DNA of 64,000 nucleotides from Lachnospiraceae bacterium MD329 (lineage in GTDB: Bacteria > Bacillota > Clostridia > UBA1381): positions 186,001 through 250,000 of the forward strand of contig VIQV01000026.1 of assembly GCA_010206265.1 (NCBI GenBank), in the 5' to 3' direction. Position numbers and translations under genes: made by a program. Below are positions 10,469 through 16,697 of the stretch, one piece after another (the first letter of the stretch is position 1; every line of letters starts with the position of its first letter). The notes under the pieces were generated by a model that did not search any database, had not been told where the DNA came from, and saw only the letters and a list, made by a program, of their open reading frames with translations.

Positions 10469-10963
10469 ATGGCGAAGGACAAGAAAACAGTAACAAATGC
10501 AATGCGTCTGTTAAATGCATCAGGCGTTGAATATGAAACAATTGAATATACTGCCGACGGCGTAGGGGAGCATTTTGGTGAAACTATTGCCCAAATGACA
10601 GGTATACCGCCTGAAAAATCGTTTAAAACACTTGTAGCAAGGGGTGATAAAACGGGAATAATGGTTTGCTGTGTGCCTGTGAACAGTGAGGTTGACCTGA
10701 AAAAACTGGCTAAGGTATCGGGAGATAAAAAGGCAGAAATGACACACGTTAAAGAGCTTTTGTCGCTCACAGGTTATATACGCGGCGGCGTATCGCCGAT
10801 TGGTATGAAAAAGAAATACCCGACATATATAAATGAAACAGCGCTTGGATTTGATAAAATCGCTGTAAGCGCGGGTGTGTGCGGTGCAACGCTTATGATA
10901 GCGCCGAAGGATATGGAAAAGGTAATAAATTGTAAGTTTGCAGATATTACAAAGGAGGATTAA
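10469..10963 (+). CDS. ybaK: YbaK/EbsC-type aminoacyl-tRNA(Pro) deacylase
   Basis: 164 residues. A single YbaK/ProRS-type editing domain. Visible features are KSFKTLVARGDKTGIMVCCVP, here given as KSFKTLVARGDK, with the conserved lysine, and GGVSPIGMKKKYPTYI. The family hydrolyses Cys-tRNA(Pro) in trans. It lies 11 bases after mutS2 and just ahead of the DUF1015 gene, so all are likely co-transcribed. YbaK versus the closely related ProX group is not settled by eye, but the GGxSPxG motif favours YbaK. Confidence 0.88.
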   Translation: MAKDKKTVTNAMRLLNASGVEYETIEYTADGVGEHFGETIAQMTGIPPEKSFKTLVARGDKTGIMVCCVPVNSEVDLKKLAKVSGDKKAEMTHVKELLSLTGYIRGGVSPIGMKKKYPTYINETALGFDKIAVSAGVCGATLMIAPKDMEKVINCKFADITKED

Positions 10964-10964
10964 A

Positions 10965-12224
10965 ATGTCAGCATTTAAACCTGCGGATATACTTATTCCG
11001 CAAAACGTAGATTTTACAAAATGGAGCGTGGTTGCCTGCGATCAGTATACCTCAGAGAAGGAATATTGGCAGGACGTGGAACAGTTTGTCGGTTCTGCGC
11101 CGTCAACGCTTAATATTATATTTCCCGAAGTGTATCTTGAAGAGGACGGAGTCGTCGAGCGTATAAAACAGATAAACGCACAGATGGAAAACTATCTTGA
11201 CAGCAGCTTGTTCAGGGAATTAAAGGATTCGCTGATATATGTAAAACGCAGACAATCAAACGGTAAAACACGCAGCGGAATTGTTGGAAAAATCGACCTT
11301 GAAGAATATGATTTCAGTAAAGGCTCGCAGTCGGAGATACGCGCAACAGAAGGAACGATTATTGAACGTATACCGCCAAGACAGCGAATAAGAATAAACG
11401 CGCCTCTGGAATCACCGCATATTCTGATTTTGATAGACGACAGGGAAAAGACCGTAGTAGAACCGTTGTGCGATAAGACAGGCGATTTTGAAAAGCTGTA
11501 CGATTTTGAGCTTATGAAAAATTCGGGGCATATAGAGGGGTATTTGCTGAATGAAGAGGCAAAGAAGAACGTGCTTTCAGAAATTGAAAAACTTGGAGAT
11601 AAGGAGTTGTTTGAGCGTAAGTACGGAGTAAAGAATAAGGGTGTGCTTATGTTTGCGGCAGGCGACGGCAATCATTCTTTGGCGACGGCTAAAACGTGCT
11701 GGGAGGAAATAAAAAAAGGGCTTTCCGAGTCTGAGAGAAATAACCACCCTGCCCGTTACGCGCTTGTCGAGCTGATGAATATACACGATGAGGCACTGGA
11801 ATTTGAACCGATACAGAGGGTTATTTTTGATACGGAACCTGAAGAGTTGTTAAATGAGCTGAAAAATCATTATAATGCTTCAGACAGAGATAACGGAGGT
11901 CAGAGGATTGACTATACTTATCAGGGAATTGACGGAAGTATATACATTAAGGAAACAAGTTCTAATTTGCCGGTAGGAACGCTGCAAGACTTTCTTGACG
12001 GCTATTTAAAGGAAAACGGCGGCAGGATTGATTATATACACGGAAATGATGTGGTTAAATCACTTGCGAATAAACCGAATACAATAGGATTTATGGTTGA
12101 CGCAATGGAGAAAAATGACCTGTTTACAACAGTTATAAAGGACGGTTCACTTCCAAGAAAAACATTCTCAATGGGTGAGGCGGCTGATAAGCGGTTTTAT
12201 CTTGAATGTAAAAAAATAAGGTGA
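10965..12224 (+). CDS. DUF1015 family protein
   Basis: 419 residues from ATG 10965, chosen because AAAGGAGG (10950-10957) is ideally placed; an earlier in-frame ATG at 10938 would overlap ybaK by 26 bases. Family motifs are present: PADILIPQNVDFTKWSVVACDQ at the start, IPPRQRIRINAPLESPHILI mid-protein and FAAGDGNHSLATAK near residue 230. DUF1015 is widespread in Clostridia, often near serine-biosynthesis genes, but its activity is not established. It is cytoplasmic (no signal or membrane segment). Last gene before a strong terminator. Confidence 0.85.
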   Translation: MSAFKPADILIPQNVDFTKWSVVACDQYTSEKEYWQDVEQFVGSAPSTLNIIFPEVYLEEDGVVERIKQINAQMENYLDSSLFRELKDSLIYVKRRQSNGKTRSGIVGKIDLEEYDFSKGSQSEIRATEGTIIERIPPRQRIRINAPLESPHILILIDDREKTVVEPLCDKTGDFEKLYDFELMKNSGHIEGYLLNEEAKKNVLSEIEKLGDKELFERKYGVKNKGVLMFAAGDGNHSLATAKTCWEEIKKGLSESERNNHPARYALVELMNIHDEALEFEPIQRVIFDTEPEELLNELKNHYNASDRDNGGQRIDYTYQGIDGSIYIKETSSNLPVGTLQDFLDGYLKENGGRIDYIHGNDVVKSLANKPNTIGFMVDAMEKNDLFTTVIKDGSLPRKTFSMGEAADKRFYLECKKIR

Positions 12225-12240
12225 ATTTCATAGTGGATAG

Positions 12241-12273
12241 AAAAAAGGAACAAGTAAAACTTGTTCCTTTTTT
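12241..12273. terminator. Strong bidirectional terminator after the DUF1015 gene
   Basis: AAAAAAGGAACAAG (12241-12254) pairs perfectly with CTTGTTCCTTTTTT (12260-12273). The stem is almost the same as the one at 15089-15119, which closes the accessory patch on the other side. Confidence 0.85.
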
Positions 12274-12432
12274 GGTACGGTTACGCTTACAGAACCTGTA
12301 CACAAATCGCATAAAATCAAGGGTTTTGAGCAGTCGATAAACAGTATTAACCTCAAAAATAAATATTTTAAGGATTAAAAAATGCCGTGATTGAAAAATT
12401 TACGGTATTTTTTATTTCCTTTGCGTACCAAA
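12271..12432. repeat. 9-base inverted repeat enclosing about 144 bases
   Basis: TTTGGTACG (12271-12279) and CGTACCAAA (12424-12432) are exact inverted copies. They bracket an AT-rich stretch without genes that contains a terminator-like hairpin. It could be an element-end remnant; chance is possible at this length. Confidence 0.3.
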
Positions 12433-12846
12433 GAGCCGGCCTTTTTCGTTCTTAGATAGTATATCATAAAGACATAAAACGGTCAATAAAAAAACAAAAG
12501 AACCGACAAATTTTTTATTTGTCAAGGTAAAACAGAATACTTTATATAAGGCATTGAGAACTGAACAAAATCAATGCCTTTTTTCTTTACTCAAAAGGAG
12601 GGGCAGACAATGCAGCTTGATTATTTTTAATATAAAAATATAGTTTATCTCAAAAAAGCCTTGAAACAAGGGAATATTCAGAGGATTTCTAAATGAATTT
12701 ACTACTAAATTACTACTTTTGCGGATTGAGCCTTGATAATACCGTGAAACTCCTATGAATATGAAGTACAAAATTGAATATTTGAAAATATGGCAGATAG
12801 AAATATCTGCTTTTTTCATACCCTAAAACCGAAAGGAATTTTGACA
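12274..12846. other. Gene-poor stretch rich in terminator-like hairpins and a tiny leader ORF
   Basis: No convincing gene. Hairpins followed by T runs lie at 12378-12416 (ATGCCGTGA against TTACGGTAT, with wobble pairs), 12511-12529 (GACAAAT against ATTTGTC), 12548-12586 (GGCATTGA against TCAATGCC, then six T) and 12793-12816 (GCAGATA against TATCTGC, then six T). Between them AAAGGAGG (about 12594-12601) is followed by a six-codon frame MQLDYF (ATG 12610). This resembles leader/attenuator DNA of Firmicute conjugative elements, but the gene such a leader would control is not there. Confidence 0.45.
12548..12586 (+). terminator. Rho-independent terminator or attenuator in element remnant
   Basis: AAGGCATTGA (12548-12557) and TCAATGCCTT (12571-12580) form the stem and a T run follows. 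It lies just before the AAAGGAGG and the MQLDYF mini-ORF. Confidence 0.65.
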
Positions 12847-13011
12847 ATGAAAACCAAAAATTCAAAGCAGCTATGCCCCACTTGCAAAGTCGGACAGGAC
12901 ACATACATACTTGACAACAGAAATCCGTTTTGTCCGTATTTGCATTGTCATAACGGCAAAACCTGTTCGGCGTATGTGCCGCTTGAAAAAATGAATAAGG
13001 TAAAGCGATAG
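12847..13011 (+). CDS. Cysteine-rich KTR-type small protein of conjugative elements
   Basis: 54 residues from ATG 12847, preceded by GAAAGGA (12831-12837). Cysteines in CPTC (near residue 10) and CPYLHC (near 31) suggest a small zinc ribbon, and the rest (KTCSAYVPLEKMNK) matches the Cys-rich KTR family known from Tn916/Tn1549-like elements. Function unknown, presumed zinc binding. It is isolated between two terminators (12793-12816 and 13011-13047). A second, divergent member lies at 60837-61025. Confidence 0.7.
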   Translation: MKTKNSKQLCPTCKVGQDTYILDNRNPFCPYLHCHNGKTCSAYVPLEKMNKVKR

Positions 13012-13047
13012 CGTTAGGATTTAACAAAAAATCTTAACGCTTTTTTT
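13011..13047 (+). terminator. Terminator after the KTR gene
   Basis: GCGTTAGGATTTAAC pairs with most of the mirrored arm ending in CTTAACGC and is followed by seven T. The hairpin begins at the stop codon. Confidence 0.75.
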
Positions 13048-13078
13048 ATTGTCTGAAATCTGAAAGGAGGATTTTTGT

Positions 13079-13573
13079 ATGGCAGTTTTCAGAATAAACA
13101 AAACCCGTGATTATACCGTGATGTCAAACTATCACTTGAAAGATACGCGTCTGTCCCTGAAATCAAAGGGGCTTTTATCTATGATGTTATCCTTGCCGGA
13201 GGAATGGAATTACACCACAAGAGGACTTGCGGCAATCTGCAAAGAAGGCGTTGACAGTATCGGAACAGCACTAAAGGAATTGGAGCGCAGCGGATATATT
13301 CAAAGAAACCGCGTCCGTGATGAAAAAGGCAAGATAACCGATACCGAGTACATCATTTTTGAGAAGCCGCAGGAAACACCCAATACGGAAAGTCAAGATA
13401 CGGCAAAGCCATATACGGAAAATCCGTATATGGATAAACCGAATACGGAAGCGCCGGGTACGGAAAACACCGCACAATTAAATACTAATATATCAAATAC
13501 ACAAGAATTAAATACTGATATAATCAGTATCAGCCCAAAGGCTATAATACGGAAGTGTGGTGCAGTCACCTGA
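13079..13573 (+). CDS. Truncated helix-turn-helix (replication-type) protein of a conjugative element
   Basis: 164 residues, ribosome-binding site GAAAGGAGG (13063-13071). Residues 1-90 form a winged-helix domain (MAVFRINKTRDYTVMSNYHL, then LSLKSKGLLSMMLSLPEEW and GTALKELERSGYIQRNR), as in the element-borne HTH proteins that normally run to about 270-300 residues. Residues 95-150 are a low-complexity, repeat-like linker rich in NTE/YTE/NPY units. The family's C-terminal domain is missing: after about residue 151 the frame runs into unrelated DNA and stops at 13571-13573 inside the SLH gene remnant. Likely a broken gene, though a shortened protein could still be made and bind DNA. Confidence 0.7.
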   Translation: MAVFRINKTRDYTVMSNYHLKDTRLSLKSKGLLSMMLSLPEEWNYTTRGLAAICKEGVDSIGTALKELERSGYIQRNRVRDEKGKITDTEYIIFEKPQETPNTESQDTAKPYTENPYMDKPNTEAPGTENTAQLNTNISNTQELNTDIISISPKAIIRKCGAVT

Positions 13574-15081
13574 ATCCTCAGGATGATATATGGTCAAAAA
13601 ATATTGCTGTTGAATCTGACTTGCTTGCAATGAAGTATAAGGATGATTTTAAACTTCAGCATTATGGAGCGAATATACCTGAGGAAGAAAAGGATAATGT
13701 CTGGATTTGGGACGCATACCATAGTGATACGCCTGCTTATCAGGGGAGTGTGACGGGCTATGATAAAGAAAACTATATACCTAATTATCCGCTTTCAGTG
13801 AGTAGAAAAAATGAGGGGTATGCTTGTAATCTCGGTAATTACGGTGTTATTGAAAGCTATAACCTAAAAGTTAAGAATACCACTGATAAGGACAAGTATT
13901 TTGAATATGTAGCCGAAACGATTTCGAGTATAGCGGCTTATGTAGAAGATGAAGATGGAGTGCACAGCGGATTTTTGAAAGGCACAAAAAGTAAGGCTGA
14001 AAAAGATACAATGGCAAGTGTACTTATACCTGCCGGCGGTGAAAAGGAGTTTTCAGTTAATGTTGTTTTGCCTATAAACTATGTGGGCGGAATAAGAAAT
14101 TATTTTCAGATTTGTGATGAAACACATATAAAGCGTACATATGAAGATTACCTGAATGACCCGAGAACGGAAAAAGGACCTGTGGTTGCAGGTATTCTTG
14201 CAGAGGAGGTAAAACATCTTTTAAGTGATGAAGTGAAAGAGATTATAAACGGCGATTATGACTGCTATGAGCTTATAAAAACAAATACGGGATATATGAT
14301 GAGATGGATTGAATGGGACGGTGCGCCGTATTATTACTATAAGCCTCATTGGGAGTTGGTCAAGACGATTTATTATCTTGATGATAACTATAATATTACA
14401 GGTAAATATGATTTTGACGCTATTCCTCAGCTTGGATTATTCTATGACGGATACTTTTATATTGAGGACGCTGACGGCAGACGCTATAAGTCAAATGACG
14501 GATACAATTGGGAGAGCTATACAAAGCGTATGCCGCTCCCTGCGGTGAAATTTAATAATGATACCCCGTCTGACTGGGCAGATGGAGAGGTAAGACTGGC
14601 TTATACGCTGGATGTTGTTCCGTATTCTATGAAGGATGTCCTTGTTTATGCGGATAATACAACACGTGAAACATTTTGCGATATTCTTGCGCATATGCTT
14701 TTGCTAAAGGATAAAATGCCGTCTGAAATTTCTGCCGGATTTAGTGATACGGAGAATAAGAATGTATTGATGCTTGGCAGCGCGGGTATTATAAGCGGTT
14801 ATGAGGACGGAAGTTTCAGACCGTTAAATGCAATAACACGTGAGGAGGCGGCAACGCTTCTGTATAAAGCAGCTCAGTATATGGGTTGTGAGAATATGGA
14901 GGACCAGTCGTATGTATACGCGGATAATGAGAGTATAGGCGACTGGGCGAAAGAGGCGGTTTATCAAATGTATGCGGCTCAGATTATGACAGGAATGGGT
15001 GACGATATGTTTGCGCCGAAGAACGGATATACAAACGAACAGTCAATAGCAACAATTTTAAGACTGTATGAAGGTCAATAG
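13555..15081 (+). pseudogene. 5'-truncated SLH-domain surface protein
   Basis: The frame is open from 13519 to 15081 but has no plausible start: GTG 13555 lacks a ribosome-binding site, and no signal peptide precedes the first recognisable sequence (GYNTEVWCSHLNPQDD). About 390 residues of unrecognised, presumably extracellular sequence, rich in Tyr, Asp and Glu, lead to a C-terminal SLH region. One SLH motif lies near residue 396 (AGIISGYEDGSFRPLNAITR then EEAAT) and another near 455 (DWAKEAVYQMYAAQIMTGMG). SLH domains tether proteins to pyruvylated cell-wall polymers. The intact gene would encode a secreted protein; its 5' part has been replaced by the helix-turn-helix gene. It is probably silent. 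Confidence 0.75.
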
Positions 15082-15088
15082 AGAATAT

Positions 15089-15119
15089 AAAAAGGAACAA
15101 GCATTGCTTGTTCCTTTTT
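15089..15119. terminator. Bidirectional terminator between the SLH remnant and ssrA
   Basis: AAAAAGGAACAAGC (15089-15102) pairs with GCTTGTTCCTTTTT (15106-15119) around a short loop. It serves the plus-strand SLH remnant and minus-strand ssrA. Confidence 0.85.
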
Positions 15120-15122
15120 GCG

Positions 15123-15472
15123 TGGTGGAGCTGAGGAGAATCGAACTCCTGTCCGAAAACAAGTCCACCCAAGCTTCTCCGAGTGCAGGTTATGATTTAA
15201 ATTCCCTTTGATACTACTTCATAACCAAAGTTATATCATCGGTAGCTCCCAAGGCGTGGAAAAGGCAGGAGCAAGCCTTAACTCACGTTCACCACTAAAA
15301 TGATGCCTTAGCCTGCGCCGTGGTACTCGCAGGGAAGACAACGCCGCAATTAGGCAGCGTAAGCTAATTCTGTATCGTTAGCGTTTATATTTAAGTTTGA
15401 GCTGATTAAAGTGGAACTCAACACTACTCGCTACTCGGGATTCATTATCCCCGTCGAAGCCATTGCAGCCCC
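15123..15472 (-). ncRNA. ssrA: Transfer-messenger RNA (tmRNA)
   Basis: On the minus strand the 5' end GGGGCTGCAATGG (15472 downwards) pairs with the 3' end ...CAGCTCCACCA (ending 15123), and a T-arm GGAGTTCGATTCTCC is present; CCA is encoded. About 350 bases, normal for one-piece tmRNA. The tag reading frame at 15382-15350 reads ANDTELAYAA and stops at TAA; the resume codon may lie one or two codons earlier (NINANDTELAYAA). tmRNA with SmpB rescues stalled ribosomes and tags the product for proteolysis. The 3' end of ssrA is a classical island integration site and the accessory patch abuts it. Confidence 0.97.
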
Positions 15473-15554: not shown

Positions 15555-16697
15555 TTAACCAATTATCAAAGGAGATGTTGTTAAATCCTTATTTCCAAAA
15601 CGTAAATCGGCATTGTCAGAACATAGACAGGCTATATCAGTTGCGCGTAAATCCAGATTGAACTGACGACTGCCGTTTTTAAAATCAGCAGTTTTTGTTA
15701 TAATCGGAACGGTACATACTTTTTTTGCTTTCTTTAAAATTTCCATACCCTTTTTGTTCATTCCGAGAACCCGTATATATTCGGGATAGGGGGAGTATAT
15801 GTCTTTTGTGAAATTCAGCAGTGAGGCGATAACGATACGCCGTATCCTGCTCATTGTATACCGTTTGGTTTTGATATTTTCAATAAGCGAATTAAAATCG
15901 GTTGATTTTTGTGCGGCGGATATAATTCGGTTTTCAAGTCCCTCTGACATCTCGCTGATATTTTGTATATCTGACGGTGAAGACAGGCGCAGTTTTGATA
16001 AAACTGCATTGTCAAGGTGCGACAGTGATTGCAGTGGCAGATTAGATACGGGATAGGGGACAAGGCTGTTTATCTTTTCGCCTGCAAAAAGCATATTCCG
16101 TATTTTTGATGCGCTTGCGATATTGTCCGAGATTGTATCGTCATTGTGCCCTACGGCCGTACGCTTTATTGTTACAGGCTTTATTTTACTTTCTGACTTA
16201 ATCAAAGCTCGTATATACTCAATTGCAAGAATATTATTGGGCTGCTGCAGTGCCTCATTTTCGTATGCCTTAGACAATGCGGCAGGGTATGAGATGCCTT
16301 CTGCCATATATTCTTTGATTTTGAGGGATACATCGTAACTTTCATTTTCAAAGCTATGGGCTAAATTTAACAATTCAGAAATATCTCCGCTTTCTGAACC
16401 AAAAACAACCTCATCAATAATTCTGAGTGCGTTAAGCGTATTAATACCGCCTGCGGCAAAATTGGGCGCGGCATTTAACGCATAACATACAGGCAGCTCA
16501 AGAACAAGGTCAGCACCGTTTGACAAAGCCATACCTGCGCGTGTCCATTTGTCTGTAACAGCAACGTCGCCGCGCTGTACAAAACTGCCGCTCATTACTG
16601 CAACAACGGCGTCTGAATGTTTTTTTATCTCATTTATTTGATATTTATGACCGTTATGAAAAATGTTGTATTCCGCAATAATTCCTGAAATCATCAT
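15555..16697 (-). CDS. tmcAL: tRNA(Met) cytidine acetate ligase
   Basis: 380 residues from ATG 16697 or 379 from the adjacent ATG 16694; the AGAGGTGAT just upstream fits the second slightly better. The N-terminal nucleotidyltransferase domain shows AEYNIFHNGHKYQI with the HxGH motif, then SGSFVQRGDVAV and DLVLELPVCYALNAA. This is the YlbM/TmcAL family, which uses acetate and ATP to make N4-acetylcytidine at the wobble position of elongator tRNA(Met). Length is close to the B. subtilis protein (about 415) but a little short at the C-terminus. Single gene, convergent to none, divergent from nifS. Confidence 0.9.
   Translation of the reverse strand: MMISGIIAEYNIFHNGHKYQINEIKKHSDAVVAVMSGSFVQRGDVAVTDKWTRAGMALSNGADLVLELPVCYALNAAPNFAAGGINTLNALRIIDEVVFGSESGDISELLNLAHSFENESYDVSLKIKEYMAEGISYPAALSKAYENEALQQPNNILAIEYIRALIKSESKIKPVTIKRTAVGHNDDTISDNIASASKIRNMLFAGEKINSLVPYPVSNLPLQSLSHLDNAVLSKLRLSSPSDIQNISEMSEGLENRIISAAQKSTDFNSLIENIKTKRYTMSRIRRIVIASLLNFTKDIYSPYPEYIRVLGMNKKGMEILKKAKKVCTVPIITKTADFKNGSRQFNLDLRATDIACLCSDNADLRFGNKDLTTSPLIIG

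Follow-up and report, generated by a model that had tools for sequence, protein, structure and literature searches.

Bacterial chromosomal inversions are mostly symmetric about the origin (PMC9584773), and those described in that study are bounded on either side by copies of one repeat, in many cases a transposase gene (PMC9584773). The rearrangement that we propose for the locus described here is like them in being balanced, in keeping replication polarity and in having a mobile-element gene at a breakpoint, whereas any repeat shared by its two joints spans at most a few bases. Two further known systems meet at this locus. The first is the left-end module of Gram-positive ICEs (HTH_36+DUF6017, surface protein, DUF3801/PcfB-like, VirD4), to which positions 12273–13520 correspond; only the left end is kept here, and its fusion partner is a member of a host SLH family, not of the CxxC-repeat/SLH surface family of the element. 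The second is the host SLH gene linked to lon-engB, to which the SLH remnant is homologous over its whole length; that gene is intact on another contig (C15) of the same genome, whereas the copy at the present locus is split and extra.

The stretch of DNA analysed (the window, 64,000 nucleotides) is C1:186001–250000 of a 2.74 Mb metagenome-assembled genome (MAG) of 86 contigs with a contamination estimate of 0.18%. Among named genomes the closest to it are uncultured Clostridia/Oscillospiraceae MAGs, and an alignment-based scan of the genome contigs returned relatives mostly already within the compared genome set. Gene order around the joint is MutS2, a YbaK-like gene, DUF1015, a terminator, element DNA, a small Cys-rich gene, an HTH gene, an SLH remnant, a second terminator, tmRNA and a nucleotidyltransferase. 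The MutS2-YbaK-like-DUF1015 block is conserved in relatives; MutS2 is an NCBIfam equivalog match, and the DUF1015 gene (10938–12224, + strand; Pfam DUF1015, 5.7e-59), with which the core genes on the left side of the joint end, is followed by a terminator hairpin at 12242–12272. On the far side a bidirectional terminator (15089–15119) occupies the gap between the SLH remnant and the tmRNA gene ssrA (15123–15472, − strand; ARAGORN; Rfam RF00023, 168.7 bits), which specifies the tag ANDTELAYAA. The nucleotidyltransferase beyond it (PRK13670, TmcAL type; 15555–16697, − strand; NCBIfam NF010191 and synteny) is a conserved tmRNA neighbour in the relatives G010, G001 and G015.

The element DNA starts at 12273 with a conjugative-element left end (12273–12600, + strand; TGGTRCG...AAATCGCATAAAATCAAGGGTTTTGA..GTCRATAAACAGTATTAACCT) that also opens the T4SS elements on G014:C18 and G027:C20 at their left ends. 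There an intact HTH/DUF6017 gene comes next, and after it a 1741-aa surface protein (SLH/Big_1 with CxxC repeats), DUF3801, VirD4 and VirB4. The small Cys-rich gene (12835–13011, + strand) gave no strong match in a family-model search; its homologues, 68–72% identical, lie just 5' of the HTH gene in G040, G023 and G037. The 5' half of the HTH_36+DUF6017 gene itself (13079–13520, + strand; ~147 codons; Pfam HTH_36, 4.8e-9) has its best homologue in G040, at 84%. With its left-end sequence and its HTH/DUF6017 gene, the interval 12273–13520 is classed as the left end of an ICE (T4SS element), and a complete or mobile ICE at the site is not supported, as the window holds only ~1.25 kb of element DNA before the joint. 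A plasmid collection searched with 12225–13560 gave no match, an exact search of viral contigs for the unbroken HTH sequence gave none, and none of the papers listed by a literature search mentioned DUF6017.

Several features of this element type were seen outside the locus. The left end (TGGTRCG...) at most sites adjoins the end of a terminator hairpin whose sequence is unrelated, suggesting that the element may integrate next to intrinsic terminators; in G027 it instead lies within a gene that it interrupts. A large secreted CxxC-repeat surface protein is found in ICEs of these Clostridia (G014:C18, G027:C20, G040, G023, G037 and G004), where it adjoins an HTH/DUF6017 or ParB-like gene 5' of DUF3801-VirD4 and carries SLH domains where complete; the element surface-protein family is present in 17 of the 61 related genomes, and a role as a mating-surface adhesin is possible. 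In G007, G034, G015 and G002, too, the HTH/DUF6017 gene breaks off within or shortly past the AT-rich repetitive linker in which the window copy breaks, by a short ORF end or by fusion to another gene, which makes this linker a possible fragile spot. Other decayed remnants of this type of element occur elsewhere in the present genome (C33:1923–2040, C31:9962–10611 and C43) and comprise the left end, a degenerate HTH gene with stops and the surface-protein N-terminus.

The joint in the window, J1 (13515–13530, AAATACTGATA/TAATCAGTATCAG), is delimited from both sides: DNA alignments with HTH genes end at ~13515–13526 and those with SLH genes begin at 13518–13521, and we place the joint before base 13521. 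The HTH ORF (13079–13573, 164 aa) retains HTH_36 and lacks DUF6017, which follows residue 168 in intact homologues. A preliminary description of this DNA had the gene lose its C-terminus after about residue 151; the loss is real, and its point lies instead at about residue 147 (442 nt). As that description also held, the HTH frame runs out of frame into an SLH frame open at 13519–15081, and the SLH part is preceded by no usable initiation signals: its first in-frame start is a GTG at 13555 that lacks a spaced RBS, and neither a signal peptide nor a plausible start was found for the remnant. This 3' part of the SLH gene (13521–15081, + strand; ~518 codons; Pfam SLH, 1.9e-17) aligns over ~518 residues to intact proteins of 792–872 aa, with 272–274 N-terminal residues missing. 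An origin of the remnant as the element's own surface cargo was ruled out, as only the SLH domains align (23–26% identity). In related ICEs the normal layout is an intact HTH gene and, after it, a complete SLH surface gene of a different kind, and a search of 61 genomes for this fusion with a start conserved between unrelated genomes found no fused copy. The structure is confirmed as a scar rather than a normal gene, in which a conjugative-element HTH gene and a decapitated host SLH gene are joined at the level of the sequence.

The SLH gene has one homologue in each of 15 genus members, with an intact copy of ~800–870 aa in 14 and a contig-edge piece in the fifteenth (G004). It lies near Lon and EngB in most flanks read (five relatives and the genome's own C15), and no tmRNA was found beside the scanned SLH copies in the relatives and on C15. 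The vertical orthologue is intact on C15, and contamination as the source of that contig was ruled out on the ground that it carries the genome's sole complete Lon gene. The window remnant is 53–66% identical to the intact orthologues and 58% identical to the C15 paralogue, is placed weakly with G014, G003 and G007, and represents an extra copy confined to the present genome among 16 genus members. The split copy is an extra paralogue or xenologue whose former place was between smpB and ssrA. Its dN of ~0.25 at saturated dS, with no stops, indicates constraint as a functional gene until lately. The intact C15 copy is also what would be needed if the remnant were an antigenic-variation reservoir, a spare SLH 3' end awaiting gene conversion with a complete copy, as had been suggested. 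Such a paralogue was sought and one was found, but the long identical stretch for exchange was not: beyond the 58% protein identity, the longest exact DNA run is 17 bp, below the usual need of homologous exchange, no further close copies exist, and the joints carry no inverted repeats of useful length. We regard the idea of a variation cassette as close to negligible.

The reading preferred in the preliminary description was an illegitimate deletion that brought an element end up against a host SLH gene and removed the rest of the element and the SLH 5' part. The window alone shows exactly such a pattern, and the other element remnants in the genome (C33, C31 and C43) are truncated. When the same genome was searched with the two missing pieces, the SLH N-terminus and the DUF6017 half, both were found side by side on contig C86 in a fused region at 91411–92641, with the reciprocal joint, J2, at C86:92229. 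C86:91411–92235 encodes SLH residues 1–275 (69% to G014; 273 codons up to 92229), and C86:92261–92641 is the DUF6017 half of the HTH gene (80% to G040), the HTH 3' part being in frame and uninterrupted from C86:92231 (LNTYPIKS...YGGNYE-stop). The C86 HTH sequence LNTYPIKSHQQETQDTIGYDEVEAYRQ...NHDMYGGNYE-stop continues the window's ...NTQELNTDI, and the SLH 5' part on C86 ends in ...RNTV where the window SLH 3' part begins with (F/Y)NQY. Since ...RNTV/(Y)NQY and ...NTDI/LNTYPIKS both continue in frame, no codon of either gene is missing. The SLH 5' and 3' halves rank the relatives alike (Spearman 0.91 over 15 orthologues), and because their identities to these orthologues vary together, the two halves were once a single gene. 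Both reciprocal joints are thus present in one genome, their halves are complementary with no net loss, and all four half genes keep open reading frames. A deletion does not account for SLH and HTH halves that survive fused to each other downstream of smpB, and we consider it extremely unlikely, indeed refuted if the C86 joint is genuine.

The neighbourhoods of the two joints complement each other as well. C86 reads recN-thioesterase-smpB, the SLH5'-HTH3' fusion and then the remains of an element surface gene, with decayed element sequence and an ICE/IS-like sequence at the contig end; the identities of SmpB and DUF6017 on C86, like that of MutS2 in the window, are backed by family models. G014 has recN-thioesterase-smpB-tmRNA, G001 has recN-thioesterase-smpB, a different SLH gene, tmRNA and the nucleotidyltransferase on one contig, and G010 and G015 retain tmRNA-nucleotidyltransferase. 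In the present genome, smpB-SLH5' stands on C86 and SLH3'-tmRNA-nucleotidyltransferase on C1, which implies that the SLH paralogue lay between smpB and ssrA; this division of a block that G001 and G014 retain whole also stands against a deletion. The gene in the smpB-ssrA slot of G001:C7 (locus L150, 5484–7038) is a different SLH-domain gene of ~370 aa (Pfam SLH, 4e-27).

We propose that a balanced rearrangement, in the simplest case an inversion, has one of its two breakpoints at the joint 13520/13521, and put the probability of this reading at roughly 0.84. Ancestral locus a would have comprised MutS2-YbaK-DUF1015 followed by an element starting with the small Cys-rich gene, HTH/DUF6017 and the surface protein; ancestral locus b would have comprised recN-thioesterase-smpB, the SLH paralogue, ssrA (tmRNA) and the nucleotidyltransferase. 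If the HTH gene suffered a double-strand break in its AT-rich linker and the SLH gene one at about codon 274, crosswise rejoining would yield HTH5'-SLH3'-tmRNA on C1 and smpB-SLH5'-HTH3'-element on C86. We infer an inversion rather than another balanced exchange, since it is the simplest crosswise exchange on one circular chromosome that keeps both products, and a probably recent event, as the four half genes are all still open-framed. The assembly does not link C1 to C86; both have positive GC skew, C86 along its length and C1 to the left (for >130 kb) and right of J1, with no break at the joint. Because replication polarity is unchanged across the joint, the breakpoints are suggested to lie on opposite replichores. 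The fusion products are almost certainly non-functional, as the SLH part is unsecretable, the HTH protein is without DUF6017 and the SLH head is without SLH anchors.

Two other explanations of the joints were weighed. A circular HTH-bearing form integrated into the SLH gene by crossover within hth would give SLH5'-HTH3'-...-HTH5'-SLH3' with no inversion, but the HTH5' side should then lead to the other element end; instead the element ends at 12273 against DUF1015-YbaK-MutS2, with >130 kb of chromosome-like skew, which makes this origin very unlikely. A chimera, in which metagenome assembly misjoined the two loci crosswise, is conceivable in a MAG of 86 contigs and would leave four half genes as undamaged as those observed. 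It would, however, need two reciprocal misjoins at complementary positions, the longest exact sharing at the joints is a few bases, far below an assembler k-mer, and the low contamination estimate also speaks against it, so that we judge an artefact unlikely.

The sequences at the breaks were compared, with the qualification that the joints are those of the MAG assembly and that the ancestral breakpoint bases are inferred from homologues 60–85% identical. A long repeat shared by both breakpoints, as in repeat-mediated inversion, was sought and only short AT-rich similarity was found; the sense-sense similarity is ordinary, 11% of random window pairs being as good. End-joining of the two breaks, the simplest guess for the mechanism, is more likely where, as here, the joints have so little sequence in common. 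In reverse complement, the SLH break is similar to the HTH break (ATACTGAT..TAAATACT), a likeness matched by 0.3% of random window pairs in a post hoc comparison, and J1 contains an 8-bp palindrome, ATACTGAT-ATA-ATCAGTAT, equalled at 1% of positions (likewise a post hoc figure); we draw no conclusion from either value. Together with the conservative exchange and the intactness of all halves, these would suit a reversible inversion switch, a form of phase variation that swaps surface-protein gene ends. No substantial inverted repeat is common to both joints, though, one partner is a transposon gene, so that the protein made after a switch would be of no use, and among the 16 genus members the present genome alone has the extra SLH copy; such a switch is thus highly improbable. 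Equally doubtful is a reversible inversion driven by a recombinase that would recognise a short site (ATACTGAT..TAAATACT) common to the hth linker of the ICE and the SLH gene; if true, an element at one locus could flip the smpB-ssrA region and turn a surface protein off.

Two features are left unexplained by the proposed balanced rearrangement. The terminators at 12242–12272 and 15089–15119, which flank the fused piece, are identical at 27 of 31 positions, and AAAGGAACAAG-N-CTTGTTCCTTT matches only these two in the genome, with GGAAC-stem terminators also present at other loci (C15, C2). An inversion, which derives the two from different loci, does not predict near-identical flanking terminators; coincidence is possible but uncomfortable. 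In G003:C5 (locus L086, 304–2028) the tmRNA directly follows DUF1015, with other genes beyond, and is 75% identical to the window tmRNA, compared with 80–89% in other genus members. This adjacency and the terminators repeated at both ends had once favoured an ICE inserted at the tmRNA 3' end between DUF1015 and tmRNA, an idea dropped because the reciprocal joint shows the smpB locus to be the source of the tmRNA together with SLH3'. A 94% match on C38 to the tmRNA 3' end, considered as an att site, is instead a tRNA-Ala-like sequence (TGC anticodon by eye).

The event, though well resolved, belongs to a known kind, and a new molecular system is not implied. It gives a base-level record of a probable inversion that lacks repeats, took a conjugative-element gene as one breakpoint and parted smpB from ssrA. 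Its main bearing is on genome evolution and correct annotation: what looks at a single locus like a deletion scar can be one end of a balanced rearrangement, which is seen only by searching for the missing halves.
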